This document shows positions 10,146-32,414 of a DNA stretch of 37,673 bases, piece by piece (the first letter of the stretch is position 1; every line of letters starts with the position of its first letter). Source of the DNA: a virus; the IMG/VR virus record IMGVR_UViG_3300050821_000999, positions 1 through 37,673 of that record, one strand, 5' to 3'. Below the pieces are notes generated by a model. That model saw nothing but the letters and a program-made list of their open reading frames with translations, had not been told where the DNA came from and made no database searches. A program made the position numbers and the translations under genes.

Positions 10146-10174
10146 TTGACAACGCCGTAGCACGCCGTTAAAAT
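10146..10174 (+). promoter_or_regulatory. Consensus sigma70 promoter
   Basis: TTGACA (10146-10151), a 17-nt spacer and TAAAAT (10169-10174). Transcription should start near 10181, only about three bases before the next ATG (10184). It is the strongest promoter seen in the window. Confidence 0.8.
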
Positions 10175-10183
10175 GGCATCGTA

Positions 10184-10351: not shown

Positions 10352-10541
10352 CTACTTCTGCATGAATTGTTACGCCAAAACCACACTCGACATCCACGGC
10401 CGCTGTGCTCGTTGTCAATCAGAAGCCACCGATATCGCCGTCCGTCCTCCAGCCACCTACGAAGGCATCTCCAGCGCCTATGGCTTGGACATCGATTCCT
10501 TCGATGAAATGATTGAACAGGAGATTATCCGTGGCTACTAA
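10344..10541 (+). CDS. Zinc-ribbon protein with acidic tail
   Basis: 65 residues. CMNC and CARC with about 15 residues between them form a zinc ribbon. The C-terminus is acidic (GLDIDSFDEMIEQEII). AGGAGG precedes the ATG and the gene overlaps both neighbours. Function unknown. Confidence 0.65.
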   Translation: MLDYFCMNCYAKTTLDIHGRCARCQSEATDIAVRPPATYEGISSAYGLDIDSFDEMIEQEIIRGY

Positions 10542-13524: not shown

Positions 13525-13775
13525 CTGCAGAGATTGCCAAGGAGATTTGCGACCGACGTGGACCCGAGACTGTAGCGGAACAGGTTGAGCGAGCGACACA
13601 GCTAATCGCCGCCCACGACGCCAAGATCAGGCGGGAAGCGTATCTGCGATGCGCGGATGCTATTGCGTCATACTCAGCATTCGGTCAAAGCGGCATAGCT
13701 TCAGAGTTCCGCAAGTGGTCCAACGAAGCAGACGGAGGGGCGGAGCTGTTAACTCCGCCTCATCCTAAAACGTGA
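13512..13775 (+). CDS. Last gene of the rightward block, hypothetical
   Basis: About 87 residues (three more from GTG 13503). Helical and charged, with RREAYLRCADAI typical of small phage proteins. It overlaps the PP-loop gene by 13 bases. Its last 11 bases overlap the end of the leftward block on the other strand. Function unknown. Confidence 0.6.
   Translation: MCEVAAEIAKEICDRRGPETVAEQVERATQLIAAHDAKIRREAYLRCADAIASYSAFGQSGIASEFRKWSNEADGGAELLTPPHPKT
13739..13759. terminator. Hairpin at the convergent block ends
   Basis: GGCGGAG and CTCCGCC form a 7-bp GC-rich stem with a 7-nt loop, close to where the two blocks converge. There is no T-tract on either side, so it is at best a weak or factor-assisted bidirectional terminator. 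Confidence 0.35.
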
Positions 13776-14283
13776 ACTTCAACCCCGATGTTACAGTGTG
13801 GATATTGGTTACCAGTATCCCACCAGTCGGGAAGAAGTTAGATCGGTCATAGTCGGCTTCGATCAGCAGCAACGTCACGTTAGGCGCTACCACGTAGTCA
13901 AGTCCAGCTCCAACGCCATAGGCAAACTTCGCCGCCCCGGTTGAATCTTTCACTGTACCGAGGTTCAGGTCCACGAACGGCATAAACTTTGTTGTATCGA
14001 AGTACTTGCTCGTCTTCCAGATTGCCGAGAGCGGTGGTCTGTAGCGCGGCCCTACTGTGGCGATAGTCACGCCCGATGGGTTAGCGAGCAGGAAGCCCTT
14101 AGCTTGTCCCCAGACACGTGGCGAGAACTGCTTTGAGAACGTGAGCAGTGTACCGTTATCGGTAGGACCTCCCACGGAGGCGTAACCCATACCAAGTTGA
14201 TACTGACCGAGTGATGGCGTTTGGGCATGAACAGCAAGAGCAGAGAACATTACGAGTAGTGCTACAGCTACAGTTTTGATCAT
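13765..14283 (-). CDS. Outer-membrane beta-barrel-like protein
   Basis: 172 residues from ATG 14283. A clear Sec signal peptide (MIKTVAVALLVMFSALAVHA, cut before Q21) is followed by alternating beta-strand sequence (GYASVGG, FMPFVDLNLG, FAYGVGAGLDYV) and ends GLKFTF. A terminal Phe is the usual signal of barrels inserted by BAM. The ribosome site GGAGGAG is well placed. It is the last leftward gene, next to lysis-type genes. Possible roles are a receptor shield, superinfection exclusion or an aid to lysis. It lies in frame with the preceding holin-like segment with no stop between. Confidence 0.72.
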   Translation of the reverse strand: MIKTVAVALLVMFSALAVHAQTPSLGQYQLGMGYASVGGPTDNGTLLTFSKQFSPRVWGQAKGFLLANPSGVTIATVGPRYRPPLSAIWKTSKYFDTTKFMPFVDLNLGTVKDSTGAAKFAYGVGAGLDYVVAPNVTLLLIEADYDRSNFFPTGGILVTNIHTVTSGLKFTF

Positions 14284-14523
14284 GTCTCCTCCATTTGTAG
14301 TTGACCACTTGAGAATCCTGGGAATAAGGATCGTCCCCTCACGTGCAAGGATGGCCGATCCTACAGCCCACAGAATGCCTTTGATTCCATGCCAGTTCTG
14401 GAAGTTGTTGTCAGCCGGATCGTGATAGATTTGAACGCCTGCAAGTAAAGCTGAGTTCACAGCGTTCTTAACTACCATGATCAGAAAGTTCCTGACGTTA
14501 AGTGGTACTGCTATCGGTCCCAT
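14284..14523 (-). CDS. Holin-like segment, reads in frame into the barrel gene
   Basis: About 80 residues from ATG 14523 (AGGAG five bases upstream). They include two hydrophobic stretches (VRNFLIMVVKNAVNSALLAG, GIKGILWAVGSAIL) and IPRILKWSTTN, similar in pattern to small phage holins of soil bacteria. The frame has no stop: it continues through the ribosome site and start of the barrel gene and would end at 13765, giving a 252-residue protein. Either a fusion is made, or the holin stop has been lost, or both a long and a short product exist. The holin assignment is tentative. Confidence 0.5.
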
Positions 14524-14878
14524 CATTTCTCCTGTAAATTATCCGTGCAGGTAACTCCAGCTTCGCTTTCAGTTCCCGAAATGCGATGTCACTTTGCTCC
14601 AGTACATCTGTTAACCTATGCTGGCCTACGGCCGTACAGCCTAGAAGCTGCTTAGGATAATTGGCTGGATGAAGTTCAATGTTTGTGCGATTTGGGACTA
14701 TTACCTGAGGAACGTAAGTATTGAACTCACCAGACGGATACCACACGAGATCGTACTCGCCTTCTGGAATCAGGTACAAAGTATTCTCCATCGTGTAGCA
14801 CTGGAACTGACCGTCGATATCGAGCATGCCCTCGACGGCAACATCATCGAACCACGAACGTGTAATCGTAACGATCAA
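14498..14878 (-). CDS. DUF5675-like protein, possible lysis role
   Basis: 126 residues. The pattern DGQFQCYTMEN, IPEGEYDLVWYPS, IELHPANYP, LGCTAVG matches the DUF5675 family, often found in phage lysis regions and structurally near L,D-transpeptidase-like folds. No lysozyme or amidase motif occurs elsewhere, so this is the best candidate for a wall-active protein, though unproven. Its end overlaps the holin-like start. Confidence 0.6.
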   Translation of the reverse strand: MIVTITRSWFDDVAVEGMLDIDGQFQCYTMENTLYLIPEGEYDLVWYPSGEFNTYVPQVIVPNRTNIELHPANYPKQLLGCTAVGQHRLTDVLEQSDIAFRELKAKLELPARIIYRRNDGTDSSTT

Positions 14879-16407
14879 TGAATACTCGCCTGCCCGCCGA
14901 TCTTGGATGTGCCGTTGATTATGCTTCCACCGCCATTTAATAGGGTTGGTAGTGCCATAATAAAAATATCATTTCTGCAATTTGTGTTGAGCGTGCAAGT
15001 ATTGGATACCCCACTCGTGTTTCCGAGCATTCCATCCCAATCACTCGTCCACAAGAACCATTTACCATCAGCAGACACCGATCCAATCGCATTGCAGGAC
15101 TCGAAACTTGGAGTGCAGCTATGTGTTGAATATGTATGAGCAAATCGCCACACCCTCCCAGTTCCGTCCATCGCATGACATTGGACTTCGTTGTCGTAAG
15201 CTCCAGAAACAGAGAATTGCCCATTGAATATCGTCGTGCAGAATGGATTTGTATCGGTCGGATTATCGGTGGGCCACGATGGATGTTGATCCCAAAGCGG
15301 TGTCGTGTAATTCGGGATGCTATTAGGATTGATGATCGTAGAGGAGTTTGGGGTGTTTTCTCTTCGTGAGTACCACGTAGCTTGAAAATGGCCACCGCCA
15401 GCATCGCACTCATTGACGGTAAAATTATAGCCAGTATTGGTATGCCCACATCCGGTAGTCGGGTCATTTAGTTGATAAACACTCAAATCCGCTACGTGCC
15501 AAATTTCCGTACCGGGGGCTACGTAGCAATTCGCTACGCAATTATTGAAAGTGATGAATGCCCAATCGCCACCCTTGCTCATTTCCAAGTAGTGCATCTG
15601 AAATCGGTCGGTTACTGCAATTGTTCCAGTTGTGCCCCAAGCTCCAGTAACAGCCCCTGTTCTGGTATTCCAGAGACGGCATCCATTTGTGCGATTCCAA
15701 ATAATTGCATAAACGTCTCCCACGGAGTCTTGTATCGAGGTCGAACTGATATTGATCCCAAATGTTTGATCGTCTTTGCTCACGAACAAATCACCAGAAG
15801 TGGGCACGCCAAGACCTACCAAATCAGGAGCACATGTCGTCAAATCAACGACCTGAACGCCAGTGGGGGCAACGGAAGTGCTAGTAAAATCGTAAGAATA
15901 AATCGCGGCGTTGTTGCTTCCATTCACTGCTATTCCGTATGCAACGTAAGGGGTTATATAGCTGAATGTCAGACCACTCGGATACGGAGTTGTGAGCGTG
16001 TAGGCCGCACCGTAGAGTTTGGTAGCCGTATTGGTGTTGGGATTCCATTGCATCGGAATCACGTCGTTTCCACCCGTATAGACCACAAATCGCGTGTCTG
16101 TCGTATCGAACGGGTTAGGATAAGCTCCTCCCGAATAGCTCCACCCATAAATTTTGGTTGTGGACATCGTGGAATTATCAGTCACACGCGTAATTGGCAG
16201 ATTGAAATCGGTCGGAGTCAGGGTGTAGTTGGCCCCCGTTAATGATCCCCCACCTGTGCAACTCGAATTTGGACAGGGGATTGTTCCTGGATAAGGGATA
16301 ACTGAAGTGCTGGTGTTCCCGCCGCTGTAGGAAATAGTTTGAGAGTTGGCCAAGGCATAACACCACAATAGAGCTAAGAATATAGAAATGCCTCTATACG
16401 ATCTCAA
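14875..16407 (-). CDS. Secreted beta-propeller-like protein, Cys-rich
   Basis: 510 residues. A signal peptide (IFLALLWCYALANS, cut near QT) leads into repeated beta segments such as SADGKWFLWTSDWDG, typical of TolB-like propellers. The mature part has about 14 cysteines, many in close pairs (CPNSSC, CVANC, CTLNTNC), which suits disulfides in the periplasm. Start is TTG 16407 with GGAG eight bases before; TTGA overlaps the upstream stop. It lies between fibre-like and lysis genes. Possible roles are a tail appendage or a secreted factor that changes the host surface; not decided. Confidence 0.7.
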   Translation of the reverse strand: MRSYRGISIFLALLWCYALANSQTISYSGGNTSTSVIPYPGTIPCPNSSCTGGGSLTGANYTLTPTDFNLPITRVTDNSTMSTTKIYGWSYSGGAYPNPFDTTDTRFVVYTGGNDVIPMQWNPNTNTATKLYGAAYTLTTPYPSGLTFSYITPYVAYGIAVNGSNNAAIYSYDFTSTSVAPTGVQVVDLTTCAPDLVGLGVPTSGDLFVSKDDQTFGINISSTSIQDSVGDVYAIIWNRTNGCRLWNTRTGAVTGAWGTTGTIAVTDRFQMHYLEMSKGGDWAFITFNNCVANCYVAPGTEIWHVADLSVYQLNDPTTGCGHTNTGYNFTVNECDAGGGHFQATWYSRRENTPNSSTIINPNSIPNYTTPLWDQHPSWPTDNPTDTNPFCTTIFNGQFSVSGAYDNEVQCHAMDGTGRVWRFAHTYSTHSCTPSFESCNAIGSVSADGKWFLWTSDWDGMLGNTSGVSNTCTLNTNCRNDIFIMALPTLLNGGGSIINGTSKIGGQASIH

Positions 16408-18122
16408 TTGATTATCTCCACAGTCATCTGTCTATCTGTCATCACATCTGAAGCGTTACTTATCGAGAAGGCCACGGTACTCTGAATGAATATTTGGGCG
16501 GTGATATCAAGATCGGATGGGGAACCTGCGAGCGTAGTAATGTTTTGATCTGGAAAATTAAGGGCCGCCGAAACACTCGTAGCTGCAAGGTCGATAATCA
16601 TATTTCCACTAGCTTCAAACCTGGACGCAACACCTGCTGTCTGGGTCGTGGCTGTAAGGTCTACGATGATCGGATTATTCGTAATCGTCCCTACCTGCGC
16701 CGTAGAAAGTAAAGTGGCAAGAGTAGTCACATTACCGCTACCACATCCCGATACTGAACATAACTTAATTTTGCGAGTTATGGCTGCAAGGTTTCCAGCC
16801 GCTGTTGTATAAACGCTCTTTACGTGAATTCGAATAGTTCTTCCTGCAAGATTCAGAGACTTCGCGGTGATCGAGCAGGCCATACCATTTTGATCGGTAG
16901 TAACGTTACCACCGGAAGTCGTCACTGGTGTCACATTGGCACAAAGGCTTGTTTCTAGCGTACCACTAGAATCAGTCAAGTTGTGCGTTCGTGCTGCCGT
17001 TTCATTTGCAGTAACAGTATCTCCGAAATTATTGTTATCTAGCTTTATCGTTGCCCCGCCTATTGACTCGACCCCCACTCCGTCTATCAGAAAAGCAGAA
17101 GCATTCACATGCACATTCCCGTTGGGCTGGATATAGAACTGCTTTGTTCCGCAGGACCCCGCTGAGTTCGTGCAAACGTCAAACACGTCCGACGCTGGAG
17201 CGCCAGCCGTAGTCTGCAAGACGGTAAGCCCTACCACATCTACGGTTGGGGCTATGGTGTTCGCGGCGGTTGTACCAGGGACAAGAACAACTCCAGCGGC
17301 ACCACCGCATGCCACAAACGATGGCGTCAGTATATTTGCGGCATTGGCATAGCTTAGACAACCAGTCCCAGCAGCCGTTGGTAAGAGCATTGTGTAATTA
17401 GTGATCGCTCCCGATGGGCAGCTAATCTGCGCCGCTCCTGCTACCAGTGTCGGCAAAGTCCCGTTACCGTTGCTGCACTGGAAATATCCCGCCCCTGCTC
17501 CGTTGGTCTGAAACGAGTTCCCGGTCACGTTGCCCAGCACATCCACACTGAACAGCGTAGCGTTCTTGGCCGCGTTCATGAAGTTCAGGAAGGTGCCGGT
17601 GGGAGTGGTGTCAGTGAAGCGGGCACCATTCAAAGTGTCGGCACCATTGGCATTTTGCTGTAAAAATAAGAGAGGATTAGTTCCACCTGTAACGCCGGCA
17701 GGTAAACTACCGCCACCACCACTTCCTGCCACAGTTCCAGTTATCGTAGTAATCGCTACCGTAACAACACCAGACGTAAACGCCGATATCCTCGCTCTTA
17801 CAGCAACCAATCCAACAGGAACAAACGTAAACGTCGTATTCGTCGTTGACGATGGCGTGCTAAGGCTTACATAGCTAGCATCGTTAGTGGTACTGACGCT
17901 CGTTCCCTCAAACTGCACGGTTGCTGACCACGTTCCTGAGAGCGTGATCCCAACGCTAATCGTATTAGCAGGGAGCTGCACAACTAAGCACCACGGCGAA
18001 GCTTGTGGTGGAGTTGCGAAGCAAGTAGCGCCAGAGCCGTTGATATTCAGCGTCGTCGTATATTGAGCATGAAGAGAACAGGCGCAAAGCATCAGTGCGC
18101 AAAGAAGTAAGATTCGTTTCAT
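16404..18122 (-). CDS. Fibre-like protein with signal peptide
   Basis: 572 residues from ATG 18122 (TAATG overlap). Signal peptide MKRILLLCALMLCACSLHA. An immunoglobulin-like strand set follows (GTWSATVQFEG, VAVRARISAFTSGVVTVAI), as in phage fibre and adhesin modules, then glycine/threonine-rich repeats with FYIQPNGNVHVNASAF, typical of trimeric tail fibres. The mature protein has about 12 cysteines. The upstream in-frame stretch to 18221 lies within the neighbouring gene and is rejected as a start. It may be a receptor-binding protein; why it should be exported is unclear. Confidence 0.72.
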   Translation of the reverse strand: MKRILLLCALMLCACSLHAQYTTTLNINGSGATCFATPPQASPWCLVVQLPANTISVGITLSGTWSATVQFEGTSVSTTNDASYVSLSTPSSTTNTTFTFVPVGLVAVRARISAFTSGVVTVAITTITGTVAGSGGGGSLPAGVTGGTNPLLFLQQNANGADTLNGARFTDTTPTGTFLNFMNAAKNATLFSVDVLGNVTGNSFQTNGAGAGYFQCSNGNGTLPTLVAGAAQISCPSGAITNYTMLLPTAAGTGCLSYANAANILTPSFVACGGAAGVVLVPGTTAANTIAPTVDVVGLTVLQTTAGAPASDVFDVCTNSAGSCGTKQFYIQPNGNVHVNASAFLIDGVGVESIGGATIKLDNNNFGDTVTANETAARTHNLTDSSGTLETSLCANVTPVTTSGGNVTTDQNGMACSITAKSLNLAGRTIRIHVKSVYTTAAGNLAAITRKIKLCSVSGCGSGNVTTLATLLSTAQVGTITNNPIIVDLTATTQTAGVASRFEASGNMIIDLAATSVSAALNFPDQNITTLAGSPSDLDITAQIFIQSTVAFSISNASDVMTDRQMTVEIIN

Positions 18123-18850
18123 TATGGCACCATGATTGGTGATACCTGAGTCGGTATTACGTTTCCTGTTTCTTGAAATGCAGTAGCAAAAGCTATCAGC
18201 GTACCGCTCGATGCTGTCCACGTTGCCGGAGCAGCACGAGAGCCAGAAGTCAAGCCTGTAGCGAATCCATCACCAAAGTTAGAAGTACCTTCGTATGTAA
18301 ATCCTGCTCCAGTCGACCCGTTTACCGATCCACTGGATGCTGATAAGCAAGTTATGAAATTAGCATTCCCGGATAAAGTTAACGAAACCCCGACACATGA
18401 AGTACAACTACCATCGTTTACGCCACCACTTGGAAAGGCACCTGAATCAAGAGCTATATTCGTAAGCGTGCGCGTCGCTTCCCACACGATAACGTCTACG
18501 GTCGACGATATCGAAGTGATTGGCTGGCTGAAAGAAGTTACCCCACTAACTGAATTTAGGCAGTAATATAAATCTGTTTGATCCCCGCCCAATCCAGCCG
18601 GGGCGCCAAGAGCATGAACCCACGACACATTACAAGCACCAGCTGGTGGTGCGCCAAGAGTAGTCCCCGTCGTTTGCGCGAGCAAACCAACAACTAGAAG
18701 ATGATTCGCTCCGGTAGATGATAACGTTACGACACAAGGACTTACTGTACAGCCAGCGGCGATATGAGCAACCTGGGTCTTGGTCCAGGCGTGGGCCGAA
18801 GTACAGATGAATAGCAATATGGTTCCAGTTACAGCGATGAGTCGTTTCAT
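18122..18850 (-). CDS. Exported Cys-rich fibre-locus protein
   Basis: 242 residues. Signal peptide MKRLIAVTGTILLFICTSAHA, then a beta-rich body with CTVSPC, CTSC and other cysteines (7 in the mature part). The sequence is Ser/Thr/Gly-rich, with LSSTGANHLLVVGLLAQTTG at its start, similar to jelly-roll proteins. ATGA overlap with its upstream neighbour. Function unknown; the context is fibre genes. Confidence 0.68.
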   Translation of the reverse strand: MKRLIAVTGTILLFICTSAHAWTKTQVAHIAAGCTVSPCVVTLSSTGANHLLVVGLLAQTTGTTLGAPPAGACNVSWVHALGAPAGLGGDQTDLYYCLNSVSGVTSFSQPITSISSTVDVIVWEATRTLTNIALDSGAFPSGGVNDGSCTSCVGVSLTLSGNANFITCLSASSGSVNGSTGAGFTYEGTSNFGDGFATGLTSGSRAAPATWTASSGTLIAFATAFQETGNVIPTQVSPIMVP

Positions 18851-19662
18851 CTGACCACTCGCCAATTAAGCGTAATAGCTCCGGGCGTGATACCAGCAGA
18901 TGTATTATTACAAACCTTGAAGTTCACATTGTTCGCCGTCGGATACTTGATGATCGTAAGCATCCCATTCGCGCTCGGTTGATAGCCTACAACTCCGGTG
19001 GGGTCGGCGTTAAAGTCAGCCATGATGTTATCTGTTGTTCCTGCTCCTGTTGCGGTAACCGTCACTGCTGCGGCACATGCACCTGAGGCGATTAGCGAAG
19101 TCCCGAGAGCCGCTGTCCCGTTCGCTACGGTTATGGTACATGTAGCGCAGCCAATCGTTCCTGTAACTGTAATCGGTCCTCCAGTAATCGGTCCAGTAGT
19201 AGCGACGTTCGTTACAGTTCCTGAGCCACCGCCGCCACTTGAAATACCGCTGATTATAAATAGCTGCCCTACGATTCCAGGTGCTGTCTGGGAGTACAGA
19301 TACCCGGTTGTAGTCGTAGTGATCCAGAACTGGAAGTTACCGTTCGCGTCGATACAGCCATTGACCAGCGTTCCTACACATAGCGCAAGAGGATTGGCAA
19401 CTGGAACGGTTAGCGCAGAGTCTTTATAAACGACTACCAAAGGTGAGCACGGAAGTCCGCCGCCAAGTGATGAGCAGACGGTTATCACGGCATTCGGGAC
19501 AGCCTGAAGCACGGACGTGATCCCAGGGACTTGGCTGACGGGCGTATTAACAATGGCCTGACCGGAGATAGAAACACCTTGAGCGAAGACACGAGGAGCG
19601 AAACAAAGTACTAGCGCAAGTATGCTTAGATAGCGTATGATCTTAGACATGAGAATACTCAT
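18847..19662 (-). CDS. Exported fibre-like protein with NWRVVR C-terminal module
   Basis: 271 residues. Signal peptide near residues 5-28 (IIRYLSILALVLCFAPRVFA). A small beta domain with CSSLGGGLPC is followed by a Gly-rich hinge and a C-terminal ~90-residue module ending AITLNWRVVR. The same module ends the next upstream gene (TINWRVVR). ATG 19662 has AGGAG four bases before; ATG 19650 is an alternative. Eight cysteines lie in the mature part. Probably an appendage subunit, inferred from the shared module and position. Confidence 0.7.
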   Translation of the reverse strand: MSILMSKIIRYLSILALVLCFAPRVFAQGVSISGQAIVNTPVSQVPGITSVLQAVPNAVITVCSSLGGGLPCSPLVVVYKDSALTVPVANPLALCVGTLVNGCIDANGNFQFWITTTTTGYLYSQTAPGIVGQLFIISGISSGGGGSGTVTNVATTGPITGGPITVTGTIGCATCTITVANGTAALGTSLIASGACAAAVTVTATGAGTTDNIMADFNADPTGVVGYQPSANGMLTIIKYPTANNVNFKVCNNTSAGITPGAITLNWRVVR

Positions 19663-19813
19663 CGTACTCCTAATGTCGCTGCTTGGCGGATGTGGTCCTG
19701 CGATAAGATACAATCCGCGAAGTGTGCCAGAAGCTCCATTTGACTGTGATGCCCTACCTGGAAGATTATGTCCACAGCCGTATCCTCCAATTCACTTTCC
19801 GAGTAGGCGTTAA
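19649..19813 (+). CDS. Candidate lipoprotein on the opposite strand
   Basis: 54 residues: MRILIVLLMSLLGGC is a textbook-like lipoprotein signal with lipobox LGGC, followed by a proline-rich body (DALPGRLCPQPYPPIHFP). It almost exactly fills the gap between two leftward genes. Proline-rich small lipoproteins include Rz1 spanins and phage exclusion proteins. Against it: no ribosome site is seen and the strand is opposite to its surroundings. A competing small leftward gene occupies the same bases. Confidence 0.38.
   Translation: MRILIVLLMSLLGGCGPAIRYNPRSVPEAPFDCDALPGRLCPQPYPPIHFPSRR
19659..19775 (-). CDS. Competing 38-residue leftward reading
   Basis: GTG 19775 with GGAGG eight bases before it encodes MDIIFQVGHHSQMELLAH and about 20 further residues. 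Its stop overlaps the next ATG (ATGA), the coupling seen throughout this block. No domain is recognised. Either this or the opposite-strand lipoprotein probably explains the 147-bp gap. Confidence 0.35.
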   Translation of the reverse strand: MDIIFQVGHHSQMELLAHFADCILSQDHIRQAATLGVR

Positions 19814-20862
19814 CGTACGACTCTCCAATTGATTGTCTGTGCGGCAGGTGTTTGATTGCCACCTGCTGTATTACACCATTGAAAATTGACATTGTTGGTA
19901 GTTGGGTAAAAATTTACGACTAAGCCAAAGACTATATTTGTACTGAAACTTGCATTAGGAGACCAGATTATGGCATCTGTAGTTGCTACACCTGTAGCCG
20001 ATACTGTTACGAGAGATCCACAAAAGCCACTGTTAATTAAGGCAGTGGTCATTGTAGCGGTGCCACTAGCAACTGTTACGGAAGCGTTTAGTGCATTGAT
20101 TGTTGGCGTGCCAGTTAAAGCTGGACTTACCGCCAGTACTACCGCCCCACTCCCCGTCACTCCATTACTCAGATTCGCCGCGCTAGGTTGCGCACAGGTA
20201 CTCGGCGCCGTTGTACTTAACCCATTCACGAACTGATTCGCAGCACATGTCCCGATCAGAGCGAAGTTAGCAAGCCCTGCCGGGCCACCAGACTCTACGA
20301 ACACCCACTTGTTCGCCGTCGAGTCGTAACAGAACTGCCCCGGAGCTGAAGGGACACATCCAGCCGAGACAGCAGCCTTGAACGAAGTCGCTCCGCTAAA
20401 GTCCCAACTGTTGCCTGTAGCGATGAACGCTCCGGCGTTGTTGTTCGTACCAGGAAGTAGCGCAGACCAATTAGCAGAAGCTCCAGAAGATCCACCGCCT
20501 ATACCAACGATCCCGTCTACGATGTATTGCTGAACGAAGTTCGCATCAGCTACGGTGAACCGATAGACCTGACCGGCGATCAGCCAAATTGAGACGAAGC
20601 CTCCGGCATCGCAGGTCACCGGGTTTTGATTCTGTACAGTACCTGTATTGTCTGTATACGTAGCAAGCGGGGTCGAAGTACCGGAGATAGAAGTAGTAAT
20701 CTTACAACCCTGAAGAGGTTGCCCATTAGCATAGAAGAATTGAAGCTTCGGAGCTGGCGCAAGGGTGACTGTCACCTGAGCATGCGCCGTCGAACGAATG
20801 AAAAGAATACCGAGAGCGTAGATCGAGATGATGGCTAGAGTTAAGAGAGTGAGTTTCTTCAT
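19810..20862 (-). CDS. Exported tail-appendage protein
   Basis: 350 residues. Signal peptide MKKLTLLTLAIISIYALGIL plus FIRSTAHA. The next ~90 residues (PAPKLQFFYANGQPLQGCKI, TPLATYTDNTGTVQNQNP, AGGFVSIWL) are the well-known N-terminal domain of podovirus tail fibres and spikes. The C-terminal ~90 residues end TINWRVVR and resemble those of the gene downstream. About 8 cysteines lie in the mature part. The combination of a tail-attachment-type domain and a Sec signal is very unusual. TAAATG adjacency with the upstream gene. Confidence 0.78.
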   Translation of the reverse strand: MKKLTLLTLAIISIYALGILFIRSTAHAQVTVTLAPAPKLQFFYANGQPLQGCKITTSISGTSTPLATYTDNTGTVQNQNPVTCDAGGFVSIWLIAGQVYRFTVADANFVQQYIVDGIVGIGGGSSGASANWSALLPGTNNNAGAFIATGNSWDFSGATSFKAAVSAGCVPSAPGQFCYDSTANKWVFVESGGPAGLANFALIGTCAANQFVNGLSTTAPSTCAQPSAANLSNGVTGSGAVVLAVSPALTGTPTINALNASVTVASGTATMTTALINSGFCGSLVTVSATGVATTDAIIWSPNASFSTNIVFGLVVNFYPTTNNVNFQWCNTAGGNQTPAAQTINWRVVR

Positions 20863-21960
20863 TTATCGGCCCTTCATCATGTCGTAAAGTGTCTTAGCTC
20901 CAGCTATTGTTCCACCAGCACCTAACCCAGTATTTCGCACAATTGGATTCTTCATCAGCTCCAACATTTGATCGAATTTAGTCGGTCCAGTTCTGGTGAG
21001 CTGCTGATTGCGTAAATCATCCAAGCCTTCCATGATCTGCTGAAGCTGGCTGTAAGCTAAGTTCGTAGGCTTCATCTCGGGAGCGGCTGTATTCAGTGCT
21101 CGTGTCACAGCTCCATAAACAGGATTCCTGAACTTTGGCGGAAGCCCTTGCCACAAGGCGCGTTTCAAGGCAACAGCATCGGAAGGAGTCAGGCTCCTCC
21201 AGTCTGCATCTTCACCTAACGTTTGCTTGAAAATATTCACAGTGCGCGCTAACGCCTGAGACCCTTGTGGGTCGAGCATGTCATCGATAGCCTGAGCTAT
21301 TGGTTTGCCAACGTCGAGTGTGACGCCTCTTTTTGTAGCGGCCGCGGCCTGAGTATCGACTGCTTGACCAGCTTTCTGCCAAGCTGGATTTACTTTAGCA
21401 ACCTTAGCTTCGGCGGTAAGACCTTGGAGGTCTTGAGGCTTTATACCAGCATCGATCAATCCTTCAGCCGGTGTTCCGTAAACAGAATCTGGATGTACAG
21501 AACCAATACGAATATTAAGATCGTTTGGCTTGATTCCAGTAAGCTCATGTAACTGCGCGATGGTATTCGTTCGCGGAGTAGGTGTATATCCTCCAGGACT
21601 ATCGGCAAAGTAGCTGGCGAACTTGTTCGCTCCGACTGCACGTAATAGCTTGGCTGTACCAGCTCCTAAGCTGCTGAGAAGCGTCGATCCTGGCATACCC
21701 ATAGGAGACTCGCCGCCCATACCTGCCATCGCTACGTTAGCTAATGAGCTAGCTTCAGGGATGCCCTCGCTTAATGGATAATTACTGCGCCCAGGCATTT
21801 GACCTAAACCAGGATTCTGCTCCACGGTAGCTGGCGCTTTTCCGGGATTCAATTGCTTATAAATAGCCGCAGATACCTGATCGTCCGTCATCGTTCCAGG
21901 GAACGATACGGTTCCAAGGTTCGGAACTTCTATCACTTTATCTGCGACTTCATTGGGCAT
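20863..21960 (-). CDS. DNA ejection protein (gp16-like position)
   Basis: 365 residues. The N-terminal PNLGTVSFPGTMTDDQVSAA matches the short motif seen in podovirus internal virion proteins; the rest is helical and Ala/Gln/Leu-rich, with a glycine-rich hydrophobic end. No signal peptide and no cysteine. Third of three consecutive genes in the place of P22 gp7, gp20 and gp16, which form the channel for DNA ejection. Confidence 0.7.
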   Translation of the reverse strand: MPNEVADKVIEVPNLGTVSFPGTMTDDQVSAAIYKQLNPGKAPATVEQNPGLGQMPGRSNYPLSEGIPEASSLANVAMAGMGGESPMGMPGSTLLSSLGAGTAKLLRAVGANKFASYFADSPGGYTPTPRTNTIAQLHELTGIKPNDLNIRIGSVHPDSVYGTPAEGLIDAGIKPQDLQGLTAEAKVAKVNPAWQKAGQAVDTQAAAATKRGVTLDVGKPIAQAIDDMLDPQGSQALARTVNIFKQTLGEDADWRSLTPSDAVALKRALWQGLPPKFRNPVYGAVTRALNTAAPEMKPTNLAYSQLQQIMEGLDDLRNQQLTRTGPTKFDQMLELMKNPIVRNTGLGAGGTIAGAKTLYDMMKGR

Positions 21961-23404
21961 TGGTGACAGCCTCAATTTGTCCGGTAGTCGGATTAAAGCG
22001 ATGCGTTATATGCTGCTTCACTGGTTGAGCTGGTGCCGCAGCAGCAGACGGAGCGGCAGACTCACCGCCATATCTGCTCTGCACATACCCAACATTGCGC
22101 TCATGCGTAGTATTCGCAGCCTTATCCTCGGCATCTAGAATCTTCTGCATTTCGGCGTTAGTAGCTGGAGGCATCTGTCCCTTAAATCCTTTATCAACCC
22201 ACGCACTCCACTTGCGTCCGTAATCTCCGAGACTTCCTGCAAGGTTCTGATACTCGGTCTGATTCATTCGCTTGACGCCGCCCTCGACTATTTCATGTTC
22301 AGCAAAACGCGTCTGAGCTGCCGATGTAGCGACTTCATTCCCACCTTTACTCATATCAAGAAGGCCACGAATACCAGAAGTTTGATCCAGAGCCGCTCCA
22401 AGTTTTTCATCTTCAGTGACAAGCTTCCCGGCAACGAGGTTCCTCATGCCAATATCCTTCATTGCTTCAGCTTGTTTACGAGCGTCAGCAGAACGCTGAA
22501 AGGATTCATTTGCAGCGTCAGCACGATCCTGAATCTTTTTGAGATCAGACACAGTTGGTGCTGCGGCTAATTCCTTAGCGAATGCCTGCACCATAACTGG
22601 CGGAATAGCCCCACCAGCATCAGTCCCATAAGTGTGAACTGTACTTTGCGCGTTTAGTATCTGTTCAGGTTTGGGAGCTGTTGCCTCGACTGCCTTAGCC
22701 TTTTCTTGTGCTGCCTCATCGATAGCCTTATGAATCTCAAGGCCGTTAGATATCTTGATCAAATCGCCAACGGTAGCTGCACCTTGTAAATGCGGGATTA
22801 TATCTGGAGGATAATTCTGCTGGTTAGCCATCACCTTCTGTACGAAAGCTGGCACAGATGCATCGTCAGATACGGAAGCAACGTCCTTGGTCCAATTCGC
22901 AACCTGCTTGTCATGATTCTCTAGTGCTGCTTTCTCAGCATCAGTTTTGGTCTTGTGAAGATTCGCTAGCTTCTCTTCGTGTGCCGTAAACTGATCGGAC
23001 ATCTCTGCTGCACCGCCAGGGCCCATTAGAGGCAAGCCTTGAGACGCCATATATTGCGCAATAGGATGAAGTCCAAGAGGGTTTGCGCCTTCAGTTGGTT
23101 CAGCTCCAGATGCGGCACTAAGCTTCTTACCAAAGTCAGGATCGCTAAGAATAGCCTGAGTCTTCGTCATATTCTCAAGCTGTAATCGCTGCTGTTCGTT
23201 CTTGAGCCGTAGCTCTTCGGCTTGCTGCTGCTGAATAGGGACTTGTGCTTGCAGTCCAGCAGTCTGCGCCTGTACCTGCTGTCGCTCGACCGGCGCTAAC
23301 TGATTCGCACGCATCATCGCTGCCACGTTCGTAGCGGCAGGGATAGCTGTGCCAGGGGCGTTATACGCCTCTATCAGTGAACCTAAGCTAGGACCATAGC
23401 CCAC
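21950..23404 (-). CDS. DNA ejection protein (gp20-like position), coiled coil
   Basis: 484 residues, strongly helical. A Gln/Glu/Ala-rich coiled coil (QQQAEELRLKNEQQRLQLEN) starts near residue 55, and long amphipathic stretches follow. It has no cysteine or signal peptide. GTG start two bases after the gp7-like stop (TAACGTG). Assigned as an internal virion protein from composition and gene order. Confidence 0.68.
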   Translation of the reverse strand: MGYGPSLGSLIEAYNAPGTAIPAATNVAAMMRANQLAPVERQQVQAQTAGLQAQVPIQQQQAEELRLKNEQQRLQLENMTKTQAILSDPDFGKKLSAASGAEPTEGANPLGLHPIAQYMASQGLPLMGPGGAAEMSDQFTAHEEKLANLHKTKTDAEKAALENHDKQVANWTKDVASVSDDASVPAFVQKVMANQQNYPPDIIPHLQGAATVGDLIKISNGLEIHKAIDEAAQEKAKAVEATAPKPEQILNAQSTVHTYGTDAGGAIPPVMVQAFAKELAAAPTVSDLKKIQDRADAANESFQRSADARKQAEAMKDIGMRNLVAGKLVTEDEKLGAALDQTSGIRGLLDMSKGGNEVATSAAQTRFAEHEIVEGGVKRMNQTEYQNLAGSLGDYGRKWSAWVDKGFKGQMPPATNAEMQKILDAEDKAANTTHERNVGYVQSRYGGESAAPSAAAAPAQPVKQHITHRFNPTTGQIEAVTNAQ

Positions 23405-23405
23405 G

Positions 23406-24413
23406 TTATCCTGCTCCCATCATATTCGCTACGGTCATAGGATTCGGGATGATTCTTCCGTTCGCGTTAGGTACGAACATCTCCGGGCCTTGCTCACCAA
23501 CTAGAATCTTCTTACCCTTTCGCACACGACCACCAGCAGCGAAGCTCCCGCTCATGGGTGCTGTAGGATTAGGACCAAAACCGCCAGATGCAGTAGTCCA
23601 GCTACCTTGATTAGGCATTGGTGTTGCTGTAGTCGAGGAGCTTTGTGGAAAGCCAGCAGATAACGCTCCGCCAAGCCCGCCCATCGCTCCACTGATGCTG
23701 CTTCCAAGCAGGCCAGTCCCTACGGCTCTAGCTCCACCAGCCGCCGCCGTATAACCAGCTTGCCCTTGTGCTGCGGCTAAGCCTTGCTGCCCGTAAGTAG
23801 CAGCCTCGTTAGCGCCAAGCCCTGCGCTAGCTTCAGATGCTTGTAAGCCCGTTTGTCCTATCCCCATCAAGCGCGAATACAGATTGTTCTGGTTATTCAG
23901 GAACTGCTGATACTGCTGCTGATATTGCTGCATCGCACGATTGTAAACGTTACCGTACTCGTTAGATGCATAACCCTGCCCGTACTCCTGAAGCTGCTTA
24001 CCTGTGCCGGTGCTAAGTAATCCACCACGAGCGGCGGCTGAGTTCTCTAAGGCTTGCTGCCCTTGCTGAAGTCTAAATTTATATCCAGGATCGTTAGCCT
24101 CTGTGACATCTGTTGGTGCTTGGAACTTATCTGTCCACGACGCCAGTGGCCCTTGTCCCTGAGCACCTTCCTGCATTAGAGAGCCTAACGTCGAGAACGC
24201 CGGGCTACCAGCCGCAACGTAAGGAGCTAACTCAGACTGACCTACTGCTAACTGCTTCTGTGTGTTAGCTTGCGCATTCGCGCCGGCACTAGCTTCGATA
24301 GCAGCGGCATTCTCATCGGCGGCGGAAATCTTCCTAGCTCCTGAGTTACCAAACAAGCCGCCGAGTAAGCTTCCTAGACCGGCTATGCCTGCGCCTATGA
24401 GTGCCGTAGCCAT
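23406..24413 (-). CDS. DNA ejection protein (gp7-like)
   Basis: 335 residues. It starts with a Gly/Ala hydrophobic segment (ALIGAGIAGLGSLLGGLFG). The family block DPGYKFRLQQGQQALENSAA, with ARGGLLSTGTGK and YGQGYASNEYGNVYNRA, is characteristic of P22 gp7-type pilot proteins. The end has VGEQGPEMFVP, a motif shared with tape-measure C-termini. Probably enters the host envelope during DNA delivery. Confidence 0.82.
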   Translation of the reverse strand: MATALIGAGIAGLGSLLGGLFGNSGARKISAADENAAAIEASAGANAQANTQKQLAVGQSELAPYVAAGSPAFSTLGSLMQEGAQGQGPLASWTDKFQAPTDVTEANDPGYKFRLQQGQQALENSAAARGGLLSTGTGKQLQEYGQGYASNEYGNVYNRAMQQYQQQYQQFLNNQNNLYSRLMGIGQTGLQASEASAGLGANEAATYGQQGLAAAQGQAGYTAAAGGARAVGTGLLGSSISGAMGGLGGALSAGFPQSSSTTATPMPNQGSWTTASGGFGPNPTAPMSGSFAAGGRVRKGKKILVGEQGPEMFVPNANGRIIPNPMTVANMMGAG

Positions 24414-24917
24414 CTAAGCAGCCTCGTAAAAACCGCTTACAACAAGCGTCTCACCAGACGCACCAGGATAAGTAGAATCGTAATTGAAAATCGCCACGTT
24501 AGAAGAGTTACCTACAATATCGCCAGCCAGTTCCTTACCGGAAATTGCTACTGCGCGTCCTACTATAATGTAACGAAACGCAGCAGCTTTAAATGGCAAT
24601 GCGGCAAGAACCCAACCAGATGCTGTTCCATTCGTAGTAATCGTAACCACTATTTGAATGAAAATAAGCTTACCAATTTGTTTATATCGACCAGTTGATG
24701 AAACAGTTGTGAATACGCCAGCCTGTGCTACGACAACAGGAACGTAAGCTACCAATGTCGTAATTATTCCCGATCCGGCAACGCCAGAAGTACCGAAGAT
24801 AATGTCATGCAACAGCTGAAAGAATCTTATCCACGGCCACGAGACTCCAGACGCAGATTTATTATCTACGAATGGCGATTCTGTAGGTACGCGATTTGTT
24901 AATACCGCAACAGCCAC
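24414..24917 (-). CDS. Tail-stub structural protein, beta-rich
   Basis: 167 residues. The N-terminus has WPWIRFFQLLHDIIFG, then a beta domain with TTVSSTGRYKQIGKLIFIQI, a pattern common at the ends of small phage tail proteins. It lies between gp10- and gp7-like genes, where P22 has the tail needle (gp26), but it shows no long coiled coil. GTG start. Exact role unknown. Confidence 0.62.
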   Translation of the reverse strand: MAVAVLTNRVPTESPFVDNKSASGVSWPWIRFFQLLHDIIFGTSGVAGSGIITTLVAYVPVVVAQAGVFTTVSSTGRYKQIGKLIFIQIVVTITTNGTASGWVLAALPFKAAAFRYIIVGRAVAISGKELAGDIVGNSSNVAIFNYDSTYPGASGETLVVSGFYEAA

Positions 24918-24918
24918 G

Positions 24919-26553
24919 CTAAACTCCCATTGCCCGATAGATCGACTTTAGGCTTTGCTGCTTCTTCAATGTCGGCGAAGTCCTAATATAAGCGTCTACA
25001 AACCGCCAACTAACTGCATCCGTACAAGTAACTTCGTACACGCGATCACGACTCTTACCCATACGCCTTTGGATAGCTCGTCGCTTGTATTGCCCGATCA
25101 GTCCACAGGGTAAGGCATGATAATTTCCCCAAGTATGACCACCATCATCGCTCCAGCGTAAGAAGATTAGCGGCTCACGAGAATTCCCCTGAGCATCGAG
25201 AATGTTCTGCCCGATTCCAGTCTCGACATCTATTTGTAGGCGCTTATGAAATTCGTATTCCTCTTCCGTGGAGATATTCGGAGCACGACGCATCCTGCGT
25301 ATCGGATAACCATTATCGTCAAAGTAAGCCTGTGACATATCGTAAATATTTCCGGTCAGTCGCCCGCCTACGAGATGCTTTCCGAAGTTGTATGTGTGGC
25401 AACGGCCTAGATGAGCAACATATGTCGCGGCAGGATGAGCCGGATCGAAATCGGCTACAGGGTTCGATCCTGGTATTACGGCATTCCAGAACAGGCGCTT
25501 ATGCCACTGTGAAGTCGTAAGATCGTAAACCCATGTGATGTTACCAGCCGGAAACAAAGTCACGTAGAACGAGTGCCCAGCATCCTGTTCGACCCAGCTA
25601 ATGGCATCGGAAAGCGGCGCAGCAAGTCCCGTAGATGGTAATCCACGAAGAGATAATTCCACAGCATGGTTACTGATTCGCGTCGGTGTATACCCAGATA
25701 ATCGATAGAAGATTCCCGCTCCACGTTCATCACCACTCAGGAAGAAGATGCTGTTATTCATCTTCTGAATACTGTCTCTCGCTATCGTGCCTTCCTCGAC
25801 AAGGGAACCTTCTACGGGGTTGAACGGAAACGTATCTCCGGTATCCTGATAGAACACCGTCTGCTTAGGACCAAAGAACGCTAGAAGCTTCTGATTCTCG
25901 ATCATTCCTACCACGTTATCTGTAAAGACAAGAATCTTTGCTGCACCAGCACCATCGACTAAAGTCCAATCCGTAGCGTCGAGCAAGGCAGAGATAGCGA
26001 ATTGATCTGTATTCGCAATCAGCGCTATGAACCTGCCGTCGAGATACTCGACGCGGCTGATTAAGGCGCCAGCACTCGTAATCGCTACAATACTGGCCGT
26101 TACGTCAGTCAATCCAGCTGGTGGAACGGCAGTGAGATCCAAAACGTAAGTATGACCACCACTAGAGAAAAATAACTGCCACTTACCTCCTGCGCCACCA
26201 GCAGCGCCGTTAGGACCAGAAACAAAATAAACAGGAAGCGTATCGTCAACAATCGCCGTCGTAAATTGAACGAACGAACCATCGGATTTTATCTCGTAGA
26301 GCGCAGTACCTGCTGCCGCGAACGTCCTGCCTGGGAACGTAGCTCCAAATGTACTGAAGCAGCTAAACAGGCCGCGTACAGAGTTGCGTCCTGGAAGTGT
26401 AGAGAATTGCTTAAGCCCCGGCGTTGGCTCTAGGATCATCTTTGACTTACCGGAAGCTTCCATCATCGCAGTGAAAAGGCAAATTGTCTCTTCCGCGTCA
26501 GCGTTTGGCGTTAAGGACTGGTACGATGGGCCGATAAAGTCGAAACGCGCCAA
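24919..26553 (-). CDS. Packaged DNA stabilisation protein (P22 gp10-like)
   Basis: 544 residues. It opens with FIGPSYQSLTPNADAEETIC, the N-terminal pattern of the P22 gp10 tail hub family (binding under gp4 and plugging the portal). FFGPKQTVFYQDTGD and WVEQDAGHSFYVTLFP continue the beta-propeller. The TTG start follows directly after the gp4-like stop. Length and order match P22 (gp4 then gp10). Confidence 0.85.
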   Translation of the reverse strand: MARFDFIGPSYQSLTPNADAEETICLFTAMMEASGKSKMILEPTPGLKQFSTLPGRNSVRGLFSCFSTFGATFPGRTFAAAGTALYEIKSDGSFVQFTTAIVDDTLPVYFVSGPNGAAGGAGGKWQLFFSSGGHTYVLDLTAVPPAGLTDVTASIVAITSAGALISRVEYLDGRFIALIANTDQFAISALLDATDWTLVDGAGAAKILVFTDNVVGMIENQKLLAFFGPKQTVFYQDTGDTFPFNPVEGSLVEEGTIARDSIQKMNNSIFFLSGDERGAGIFYRLSGYTPTRISNHAVELSLRGLPSTGLAAPLSDAISWVEQDAGHSFYVTLFPAGNITWVYDLTTSQWHKRLFWNAVIPGSNPVADFDPAHPAATYVAHLGRCHTYNFGKHLVGGRLTGNIYDMSQAYFDDNGYPIRRMRRAPNISTEEEYEFHKRLQIDVETGIGQNILDAQGNSREPLIFLRWSDDGGHTWGNYHALPCGLIGQYKRRAIQRRMGKSRDRVYEVTCTDAVSWRFVDAYIRTSPTLKKQQSLKSIYRAMGV

Positions 26554-27348
26554 TTAACGTCTCCCAGGACCTGCCGGGATGTCCGCATAGAAATTGTAAA
26601 AACCGCGCTTCCCGCTTATGTAGTTCAGATCCGCCGTTGATAGCTCTGCTACTCTCGTATTGAACGCCTTAATCGTATCCACACTTTGATCGGCCATCAT
26701 CTTAATGAAAGGAAGCCGTTCAGCTTCTCCGGGAAACTCAATCCCGCATCGCCATGCCAGGTTGTACTTGATCGCTTCGGCGTAGGCCGGAGGAAAGGTG
26801 AACTGCGTATCGAGATTCGGAAAGTACGTTAACGCAATCCACGGATAAATGACCAGCTGAAGTGTAGTATTCGGTAGTGGCCAGTAGTTCAGCAGTCTAA
26901 GCGGGAAGCCATCGTCATCCCACACGCCAAGAGATAACGCCGCCGGTACATTCTTTATCGGGATATGCTGCCACTCTTGAAGTGTTAAATCCTTGATTAC
27001 TAGCTCAAGTGGCAACTGAGGATTCGCCGCAGTAATGATGCTGTACTTCTCGATGCGTGGCGGTCGGGGAATATTGACATCGCCACCAAGACCGACGGAA
27101 TACGTCTGCTTCCCAGTAGTCATAGGGAAAGTCAAGCGCTGAATGGTAAAGATCATCAAGCGTTGAGCGTTCCATACGTCCATCATCTGGTTGAGAATGC
27201 GCAGACCGGCTTGCCCATCCTCAGCTGATACAGGTTCGCCAGCCGACTGAGAGCCGCACGCCACCAATGCATCGGTAATGATGTCCAGGCCTGCTTGAGT
27301 CAAGCCCGGTATTGAGATCGGCGGCGTAGATGGTGAGCTAATGGCCAT
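26554..27348 (-). CDS. Head-tail adaptor / tail accessory factor (P22 gp4-like)
   Basis: 264 residues. The family pattern is seen as AGLRILNQMMDVWNAQRL, FPMTTGKQTYSVG and a late LAWRCGIEFPGEA helix. P22 gp4 adds to the portal after packaging and carries gp10. It directly abuts gp10-like (TAA-TTG) and follows the FN3 gene. Confidence 0.82.
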   Translation of the reverse strand: MAISSPSTPPISIPGLTQAGLDIITDALVACGSQSAGEPVSAEDGQAGLRILNQMMDVWNAQRLMIFTIQRLTFPMTTGKQTYSVGLGGDVNIPRPPRIEKYSIITAANPQLPLELVIKDLTLQEWQHIPIKNVPAALSLGVWDDDGFPLRLLNYWPLPNTTLQLVIYPWIALTYFPNLDTQFTFPPAYAEAIKYNLAWRCGIEFPGEAERLPFIKMMADQSVDTIKAFNTRVAELSTADLNYISGKRGFYNFYADIPAGPGRR

Positions 27349-27720
27349 TTATTGCACCACTTCTGTTAGAGCAGCCACTGGGTTTGGGCTTGTCACAAGT
27401 TCTCGATATACGTTGTAGGCTAATGCCGCACCATGATTAGGATCAACGGCTGAAGCCGTCCAACTCAGCGCAACTGAATGCGCTACTGCCGTATTGGGAA
27501 TAACCGCAGTAACCACATTACTAGGACCGCTCTCACCAGCGGCATTGGTAGCAGTTACTACATAATTGAACACCTGCCCAGAAGTCACGGCGGTGTCAAT
27601 TTGAGATGTGCCGTTCGTTGATGCCAGCTTGATATAGCCAGTAGGCGCCTGTGCAAATCCAACGACACAATAGACCAGCAAAACCGTGAACAGACTCCAG
27701 CCATTGAACCAGCGTCTCAT
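27349..27720 (-). CDS. Exported single fibronectin III-like domain
   Basis: 123 residues. Signal peptide MRRWFNGWSLFTVLLVYCVV plus GFAQA, then one FN3-like domain (YVVTATNAAGESGPSNVV, ALSWTASAVDP, YNVYRE). Ig-like domains are common on phage capsids and tails, but here a Sec signal precedes it. Overlaps its upstream neighbour by ATGA. May be a host-surface or virion decoration protein. Confidence 0.7.
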   Translation of the reverse strand: MRRWFNGWSLFTVLLVYCVVGFAQAPTGYIKLASTNGTSQIDTAVTSGQVFNYVVTATNAAGESGPSNVVTAVIPNTAVAHSVALSWTASAVDPNHGAALAYNVYRELVTSPNPVAALTEVVQ

Positions 27721-27884
27721 GTTCGCTTCTCGTTCTTCTTGTGACGATATGTCATATGGCTAAGAATCCCGCGTTGTGCACGAAACTCAGCAGAGCGATG
27801 TGGAGATTCATCCTCATGATAGATATGAGTCCATTGGCATAGCTCGCACTTCACTTCAACCGATTTAAGCTGACTTTGGGACAT
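27717..27884 (-). CDS. Small C2H2-like zinc protein
   Basis: 55 residues. CELC and, further on, HMTYRH form a C2H2-type pair spaced by about 25 residues. Starts inside the end of the preceding gene. A longer in-frame start at 27956 is less likely because of overlap. Function unknown. Confidence 0.55.
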   Translation of the reverse strand: MSQSQLKSVEVKCELCQWTHIYHEDESPHRSAEFRAQRGILSHMTYRHKKNEKRT

Positions 27885-28494
27885 TGATCTCGCTTTCTGG
27901 TTTACAGTCTGGAGACAAGTACCATCCTCTTCCTGCTGCTTTGAGTTCATTTTCATCGTTAACGATCTTCTGAATCGGGCTATTGACCCACAGTTTGTAA
28001 TCCTCGAACGTCTTCGGGTGATTCTTCGTTTTCCAAGCTTCGCGCTCTGCTGCTTGGATCTGAAGAATTAGCGTGCGCTTGAGAAGTCGTAAGGCTGTAC
28101 CATCAGGTACTGTTGAAGGGAGTGCGAGCTGTCTAAAGTCGATGTCCACTTGGATGGCAAGCAACTTGTCTAAGAATACGTCCCAGGACTTCTGCTTGTC
28201 CTTGGTATCCGAGATCACATTATCGAGCGCCTTTGACACAAGCACTGAGTCTATCTGTCGAAGCTGATAGACCATCCTTGGGTATTCCTGATAGATGTAG
28301 CGCACAGGAATATACTGCTTCCCCTTGTGCGGATACCGAGGATGCTCGGCAAAGATATGATTCACTTGCGCTTCGGGAATGGCTGGCCGCGTTCGCTGAA
28401 AGCGATCCATACCATCGTGATAGTTCAGACTCTCGGCAAGCGAATCTTCAAGCAAGGCTTGGCGCATCATCTCAGTCATTGGCTGTGACGGCAT
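27865..28494 (-). CDS. Hypothetical protein between capsid and tail genes
   Basis: 209 residues, helical with several Trp and Tyr, no signal peptide. AAGGAGG lies upstream of ATG 28494. The family is not recognised. Position after the capsid genes suggests a head completion or connector role, without direct support. Confidence 0.65.
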   Translation of the reverse strand: MPSQPMTEMMRQALLEDSLAESLNYHDGMDRFQRTRPAIPEAQVNHIFAEHPRYPHKGKQYIPVRYIYQEYPRMVYQLRQIDSVLVSKALDNVISDTKDKQKSWDVFLDKLLAIQVDIDFRQLALPSTVPDGTALRLLKRTLILQIQAAEREAWKTKNHPKTFEDYKLWVNSPIQKIVNDENELKAAGRGWYLSPDCKPESEINVPKSA

Positions 28495-28513
28495 TCGAAT
28501 CCTCCTTAAAGTT

Positions 28514-28537
28514 GGCAGCTGATAACGCTCAACTGCC
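28514..28537 (-). promoter_or_regulatory. Intergenic hairpin after the coat-linked genes
   Basis: In the leftward RNA, GGCAGTTGA and TCAGCTGCC pair over 9 positions (one G-U) around the loop GCGTTA. It fills the 58-bp gap below the coat-linked gene and is followed by the next ribosome site, not a T-run. Possibly an attenuator or an RNA-stability element that lowers expression after the coat genes. Confidence 0.4.
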
Positions 28538-28552
28538 GAAGCGTGTGATGGT

Positions 28553-29437
28553 CTAGCTAACTCTATTTGGCATCCACTTCAATGTTGTTGGGTTCCAGCA
28601 GAACGTAACTGGAATTGTAATGACTGTAGTTGTTCCAGCGACCGAGATATTTCCGGCTGCTGTCCATGTAAATACGCCAGTGGGGATAACGTAGAAGCAA
28701 CCGCCACCGAAGGCGGTTCCGTTAAAACCAATTGCACCACCGGCATTCATCGTAAAGCCCGTAATGGCGTTTGTTCCAGATATCTCGAAGACAGGCCCGC
28801 CAATAGGTGTACTTCCAGCTACCGATGCGATTACCGATACGGCGATCCCATCTACGAACGACGCATTGTTCCAACCAGGAACCCACGTGTTAGTAATCGA
28901 GGAGCATAGCCACTGGCGACCAGTAACGTAGTTCAAGTACGGCGTACTCTGAATGGTTAGAGGATTACAAGCAGAGTAAGACGACGTTACCGGGGGAATG
29001 GCTAAGCCGCCAGGATCTGACGAATAAAACTGAAATGGAGCACCAATCAGCACCATCGTTCCAGATACGTGAGGCATTGCCGTTGTGCTCTGATACCCAC
29101 GCTGTACAGGAACAGTCAGTAGCGCCGTGTTAGGAGTTCCAGTTACCGCCATCAGCTCGTTGTCGATATAGATGAGCGTCTGTGGCGTACCCTGGATCGG
29201 ACCAACCACACCAGTCAAACTGGCAAGCGTAATCGTTGTCTGATAAGCGGTGTTAATGCCAGAAGATATGGTATTCCCGGCACCAACGGCCGCTCCCAGC
29301 GTCGTCTCGATTAACGGGCAGACTGGGATGGTCGCCGTTAACGTGGTTTGACAAACAGCTCCTTGGCCCTGGGCGTAAGCGCCGCTAGCACAAAGCAAAA
29401 GGAGCGGAAGTGTAAGTAACAGTTTTTTGATGTTCAT
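28553..29437 (-). CDS. Exported protein directly after the coat gene
   Basis: 294 residues. Signal peptide MNIKKLLLTLPLLLLCASGA plus YA, cut before Q. The body is beta-rich and Gly/Thr-rich (LIYIDNELMAVTG, VQRGYQSTTAMPH) with 6 cysteines. The ATG at 29437 has GGAG six bases upstream. The LIYIDNELMAV...VQRGYQSTTAMPH pattern is one I associate with virion proteins in other phages. A head or appendage protein is likely by position; the Sec signal contradicts normal assembly in the cytoplasm. Confidence 0.7.
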   Translation of the reverse strand: MNIKKLLLTLPLLLLCASGAYAQGQGAVCQTTLTATIPVCPLIETTLGAAVGAGNTISSGINTAYQTTITLASLTGVVGPIQGTPQTLIYIDNELMAVTGTPNTALLTVPVQRGYQSTTAMPHVSGTMVLIGAPFQFYSSDPGGLAIPPVTSSYSACNPLTIQSTPYLNYVTGRQWLCSSITNTWVPGWNNASFVDGIAVSVIASVAGSTPIGGPVFEISGTNAITGFTMNAGGAIGFNGTAFGGGCFYVIPTGVFTWTAAGNISVAGTTTVITIPVTFCWNPTTLKWMPNRVS

Positions 29438-31386: not shown

Positions 31387-31387
31387 C

Positions 31388-32407: not shown

Positions 32408-32414
32408 AAATCTC

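Follow-up and report, generated by a model that had tools for sequence, protein, structure and literature searches.

In the textbook account, the whole assembly of a tailed phage takes place in the cytoplasm. The closest described relatives of the tail fibre discussed here are the tailspikes of P22, Sf6, Pam1 and Pan3, which it resembles in the fold and motifs of the head-binding domain (HBD), in gene position and in having a variable C-terminal part. It differs from them in that it has a predicted cleavable Sec signal and is cysteine-rich with an even number of cysteines; compared with P22-type tailspikes, the C-terminal parts found here are also without recognised enzyme domains. The nearest functional parallel is the adsorption protein pIII of M13, which undergoes Sec export, cleavage and disulfide bonding ahead of its incorporation into the particle. 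M13 particles form at the membrane and leave the cell by extrusion, with no lysis, whereas the phage described here is tailed and capsid-packaging, and no homology between the two is claimed.

Phage lambda encodes Lom, an outer-membrane beta-barrel with a signal peptide (SP) whose gene lies among the tail genes (PMC12309495). Lom resembles the product of one gene in the locus described here (13765), but Lom stays on the host whereas the present fibres have a domain for docking to the virion. WceF of Pantoea stewartii, a trimeric protein that resembles a tailspike, leaves the cytoplasm by the Tat pathway (PMC7949094). WceF is a bacterial biofilm enzyme, and its likeness to the fibres here is that of an exported tailspike-like protein. 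To our knowledge it has no head-binding domain and is not encoded in a phage operon. A survey of 35 acidobacterial prophages makes no mention of tail fibres or signal peptides (PMC5900883). In the literature searched, which consisted mostly of papers available without subscription, no account was found of tailed phages that export their tail fibres, nor of the present SP gene set in acidobacterial phages.

The window, the whole stretch of DNA that was analysed, comprises 37,673 bases (IMG/VR virus record IMGVR_UViG_3300050821_000999) and carries, on its minus strand, a virion operon of P22 type. The portal, scaffold, coat, gp4-, gp10- and gp7-like proteins were assigned with PHROGs, and the gp20- and gp16-like proteins by position and composition. 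The core virion genes are as follows:

32868..35048, minus strand: portal protein of P22 type (PHROGs), without SP
31388..32512, minus strand: scaffold (phrog_8865), without SP
29449..30603, minus strand: major coat protein (phrog_283, 9e-59), without SP
26554-27348, minus strand: gp4-like adaptor (phrog_12985/637), without SP
24919-26553, minus strand: gp10-like hub (phrog_578), without SP, on which the HBD is expected to dock
20863..24413, minus strand: gp7-, gp20- and gp16-like ejection proteins with 0 Cys and without SP (23406 is phrog_598)

A peptide-pattern query of IMG/VR for relatives of the portal returned no match. Several other frames in the window were noted. Between the scaffold and the coat, a frame at 30694-31437 (minus strand) has similarity to DUF559/Vsr-like nucleases and is possibly a homing-type endonuclease. 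A 67-aa protein with a hydrophobic start and 9 Cys is encoded at 36178-36381 (minus strand), and small Cys-rich signal-bearing frames resembling it were seen in G423 (11449-11712) and G425 (10085-10492). The frame at 6693-7724 (plus strand), on the early strand, matches radical-SAM proteins weakly and has a CxxxCxxC-like motif, that at 4972-5712 (plus strand) encodes a 246-aa protein with a long Ala/Tyr/Asp low-complexity stretch, and 12739-13524 encodes a protein with a PAPS-reductase-type domain.

The original prediction named eight genes in and after this operon whose products would begin with a signal peptide. All eight were found, each with a positively charged N-terminus followed by a hydrophobic segment and a cut site of A-x-A type, the tripartite signal of a Sec and signal peptidase I substrate. 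These genes, with the two N-terminal parts of the fibre, are as follows (the cut site is marked by a slash):

28553..29437, minus strand: post-coat protein of 294 aa, SP of 22 aa (AYA/Q), mature form of 272 aa with 6 Cys
27349..27720, minus strand: small SP protein of 123 aa (GFA/Q) with a fibronectin-like trace
19810..20862, minus strand: tail fibre or tailspike (HBD protein) with an SP of 28 aa (AHA/Q), the HBD and a variable part; 8 mature Cys
20779..20862, minus strand: SP of the HBD fibre, MKKLTLLTLAIISIYALGILFIRSTAHA, at the position of the start codon of ordinary relatives
20503..20778, minus strand: head-binding domain for virion docking (residues 29-120), with a likely Cys pair (GC..VTC)
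18847..19662, minus strand: second SP fibre protein (VFA/Q); 8 mature Cys
18122..18850, minus strand: third SP protein (AHA/W); 7 mature Cys
16404..18122, minus strand: fourth SP protein (LHA/Q), 572 aa; 12 mature Cys; its family is found in 12 genomes, with an SP in 11
14875..16407, minus strand: fifth SP protein (TTG start; ALA/N), 510 aa; 14 mature Cys
13765..14283, minus strand: predicted outer-membrane beta-barrel with an SP (VHA/Q), a C-terminal Phe and no Cys

Signal peptides were called by a home-made rule (charge, hydrophobic core and cut site) together with reading by eye. From the longest open frame the rule called seven of the eight window genes, the exception being 13765, which starts at an internal ATG (14283) with a strong Shine-Dalgarno sequence, GGAGGAG. 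The 81 residues upstream of this ATG in the 13765-14526 frame (minus strand) are hydrophobic and holin-like, in the same frame and with no stop between. Pfam and PHROGs gave no function for most of the window SP proteins. The cysteine contrast that accompanied the prediction was borne out by an exact recount: the six largest SP proteins have 55 Cys in 2,102 mature residues (2.62%) and the eight core virion proteins 15 in 3,274 (0.46%; Fisher p=2e-11).

The same set had been proposed for a search in related phages, and the SP pattern recurs in 29 related genomes or loci, namely those in which the post-coat gene or the fibre has a relative. Among these, the rule was positive for 20 of 21 post-coat proteins, for 11/12 in the 16404 family, for 10/14 in the 18847 family and for 18/22 in the HBD (19810) family, which rises to 24/24 when the N-termini are read by eye. 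It called none of 169 portal, scaffold, coat, gp4-, gp10-, gp7-, gp20- and gp16-like proteins, so the SP pattern is not a matter of chance, nor is it peculiar to a single contig. The A-x-A/Q cut sites are conserved and the hydrophobic core of the SP varies freely.

The main comparison concerns the fibre encoded at 19810. The prediction that one of them carries a podovirus tail-fibre N-terminal domain proved correct: its HBD matches phrog_26190 (6e-6), and a profile of the HBD family finds the tailspikes of the cyanopodophages Pan3 and Pam1 (9vyg, 7eeq) at E about 1e-12. The predicted fold, compared by Foldseek, matches the docking domains of P22 (1lkt, 8tvr, 9jg6), Sf6, Pam1 and Pan3 (1lkt, TMt 0.62; 7eeq, TMt 0.68; probability 1.0). 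The gene directly follows the ejection-protein genes, which is the tailspike position and the gene order of ordinary P22-type phages. For the C-terminal part, which in P22-type tailspikes is beta-helical and receptor-cleaving, no Pfam family was matched, and the structure model has low confidence there; among the HBD fibres, the C-terminal parts diverge and the HBD is conserved, the pattern of ordinary tailspikes.

In all 12 phage records examined, both cultivated and metagenomic (Xanthomonas, Rhodoferax, Pseudoalteromonas, Pseudomonas, Vibrio, Shewanella, Thalassomonas and metagenomic podoviruses), the start of the HBD lies within codons 1-5, with no space left for an SP. About 70 of 80 HBD relatives in IMG/VR likewise start with the HBD and have no SP. 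In the acidobacterial set, an SP of 16-28 aa precedes the HBD in the primary product, and the domain would lie at the very N-terminus only in the predicted cleaved form. The SP cut, usually A/Q, falls exactly where ordinary HBD proteins start, so the cleaved protein would have the N-terminus of an ordinary tailspike. Each of the 19 genomes with a match has exactly one HBD protein, and it bears an SP. This would leave no cytoplasmic substitute for the tailspike. On a tree of the HBD, SP status is strongly clustered, with 4 changes against 22.6 in shuffled data, the domain being too short to separate one origin from several. Weak HBD matches in other acidobacterial genomes (E about 1e-4) were set aside as chance. 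An HBD protein without an SP was seen in a distant, high-GC acidobacterial MAG (G199:C402, L177, 1117-1809, minus strand), where its gene adjoins a 3,026-aa frame with one Cys.

The gene at 28553 adjoins the coat gene, as had been stated. The N-terminal domain of the mature post-coat protein resembles beta domains of virion and tail-tip proteins. Searches with its model in Foldseek and VIA-align gave only a common virion-protein beta domain (the best match, with Z 10.9 across 79 residues, was a VP1 capsid chain). Nearly all of its 84 relatives have an SP, mostly ending in A/Q or G/Q, and the signal sequences are widely variable. The SP-bearing relatives mostly have at least 4 Cys (range 2-9), with an even mature number (2, 4, 6 or 8) in 53 of 54, the exception being a contig-end fragment; the complete relatives without an SP (L050, L078, L079, L082 and L083-L085) have 0-2 Cys. 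Since such SP-less forms occur, export is not essential to the role of the protein, and L079, which combines an SP-less post-coat protein with an SP-bearing HBD fibre, indicates that the two traits are separable. The C-terminal ~108 aa of the 18847 protein are 45% identical to the C-terminal domain of the HBD fibre, with conserved Cys, and on the basis of this common domain the two fibres may form a joint appendage. The shared domain, the post-coat protein and the 16404 protein had no matches in phage records, and the 27349 protein had no relatives among the genomes studied.

The original prediction left it undecided whether the exported proteins join virions at lysis or remain on the host as a shield or decoy. 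If they never joined virions, they would coat the periplasm or cell surface, where receptor blocking, exclusion of other phages or the clearing of lysis debris can be envisaged. Signal peptides would indeed place the proteins outside the cytoplasm, and exported surface proteins are known from tailed phages, lambda Lom being an example (PMC12309495). The 13765 product itself looks like one. It is probably an outer-membrane barrel, having an SP and a C-terminal F and an OMP_b-brl match of 0.005 that falls under the cut-off, and it probably stays on the host as a surface protein instead of forming part of the virion. The fibre, however, retains a conserved HBD for docking to the virion, for which a decoy would have no use; it is the sole HBD protein of each genome with a match, it occupies the tailspike position, and its HBD has been retained while the remainder diverged. 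We therefore regard an exclusively host-bound role for the set as unlikely, and joining the virion at lysis is favoured because of the conserved HBD and the single SP-bearing HBD protein per genome.

It is also conceivable, with a probability a little lower again, that the exported fibres serve twice, some joining virions at lysis and others staying on cells or being shed free. Assembly after lysis would leave a surplus of free fibres, and several SP proteins are encoded per genome, some without a docking domain, but nothing in the sequence distinguishes such dual use from simple joining of the virion.

The number of cysteines bears on whether the signals are cleaved and the cysteines oxidised. 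Full disulfide bonding of the mature proteins leads one to expect even Cys numbers, and an even count is an established mark of oxidised exported proteins (PMC7678975). As SPs often contain Cys of their own, the rule is not expected to hold in precursors. Once the predicted SP is removed, 75 of 83 proteins have an even number of Cys (p=9e-15), whereas parity is random in the precursors (even in 48 of 86; p=0.33) and in the core virion proteins (52 of 111; p=0.57). These counts include kin within families, but the result still holds when the 32 homology clusters are represented by a single protein each, where 22/26 mature forms were even (p=5e-4) and 13/29 were even with the SP included. Within the HBD only, the mean number of Cys was 1.73 in proteins with an SP and 0.15 in those without (p=5e-10; non-redundant set of 41 and 29 sequences). 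That parity becomes even only after removal of the SP supports export and disulfide pairing and, indirectly, cleavage, as far as these can be read from sequence.

Hydrophobic N-termini alone could be anchors, and the N-termini might then remain uncleaved or not lead to export, acting as a membrane anchor, a folding aid or a part of the virion. This is very improbable, as the A-x-A/Q cut sites have been kept while the hydrophobic core was free to vary, and the even parity appears only without the SP, also among proteins whose SP holds an odd number of Cys (34/43 even when mature); uncleaved anchors were rejected on these two grounds. That the pattern is an artefact of wrong starts, contamination by host secreted genes or chance hydrophobic stretches has a negligible probability, for although automatic start choice is error-prone and several starts are TTG or internal, dozens of independent contigs, as well as host genomes, share the arrangement, there were no false SP calls in 169 core genes and the HBD is a phage domain, so that host contamination and wrong starts were rejected as contradicted by the comparative data.

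Relatives in bacterial genomes point to the host. Relatives of the post-coat gene were found in two Bryobacterales MAGs. The HBD fibre occurs in nine genomes that belong to the same class as G247. We take this class, which lies within the phylum of the two MAGs, to be Terriglobia. The fibre has a hydrophobic signal-like N-terminus in 9/9. In G247 the fibre lies in a single 6.4-Mb contig, beside putative ejection-protein genes and further signal-bearing genes; the prophage seems partial, as neither portal nor coat could be recognised in the vicinity of the fibre. VKOR was found in 6/8 such genomes and DsbB in 0/8, and the presence of VKOR makes an oxidising periplasm likely. The genomic context gives good support for Acidobacteriota (Terriglobia), which are soil bacteria, as the hosts of the relatives, and by extension from these hosts the window phage itself presumably infects an acidobacterium.

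Taken together, export and disulfide bonding are well supported by three independent lines: conservation of the SPs, the presence of an SP where the HBD would otherwise begin with the start codon, and Cys numbers that tend to be even only in the mature forms. This part of the original prediction is upheld, and of the two fates it offered, sequence comparison favours joining the virion, with 13765 read as the host-surface protein. The predicted signals and their conservation, the cleavage and pairing deduced from parity, and the identity and predicted fold of the HBD are likewise well supported, and docking would follow after lysis. In the proposed route, a P22-type podovirus of Acidobacteriota (Terriglobia) would make its receptor-binding appendages as precursors for Sec export. 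Signal-peptidase-I signals would direct the post-coat protein, and the series of fibres encoded after the ejection genes, to the periplasm, where these proteins would lose the signals and fold with their Cys paired, probably oxidised by a VKOR-type system of the host. In the HBD fibre the cut would regenerate an ordinary tailspike N-terminus, so that the mature protein could dock on the tail hub. Capsid particles would be assembled in the cytoplasm while the fibres remain in the periplasm; rupture of the envelope at lysis would bring the two pools together, and the fibres would attach as the last step. In P22, tailspikes can be attached in vitro to particles that are otherwise complete, so such late addition of fibres is feasible. 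We consider this whole explanation, of podovirus appendages that are Sec-exported, disulfide-bonded and docked at lysis, to be likely.

The balance of probability also leans, with somewhat less assurance, towards an entire lineage of tailed phages that builds its virions in two compartments joined only at lysis. If this is true, the receptor-binding proteins bypass the cytoplasm and the progeny are non-infectious before the cell opens. A conserved fibre-exporting lineage would add an assembly route for tailed phages, and fibre export would account for disulfides in a tailed virion. It would also provide a simple means of recognising fibre genes, and perhaps the host phylum, in the large uncultured acidobacterial virome.
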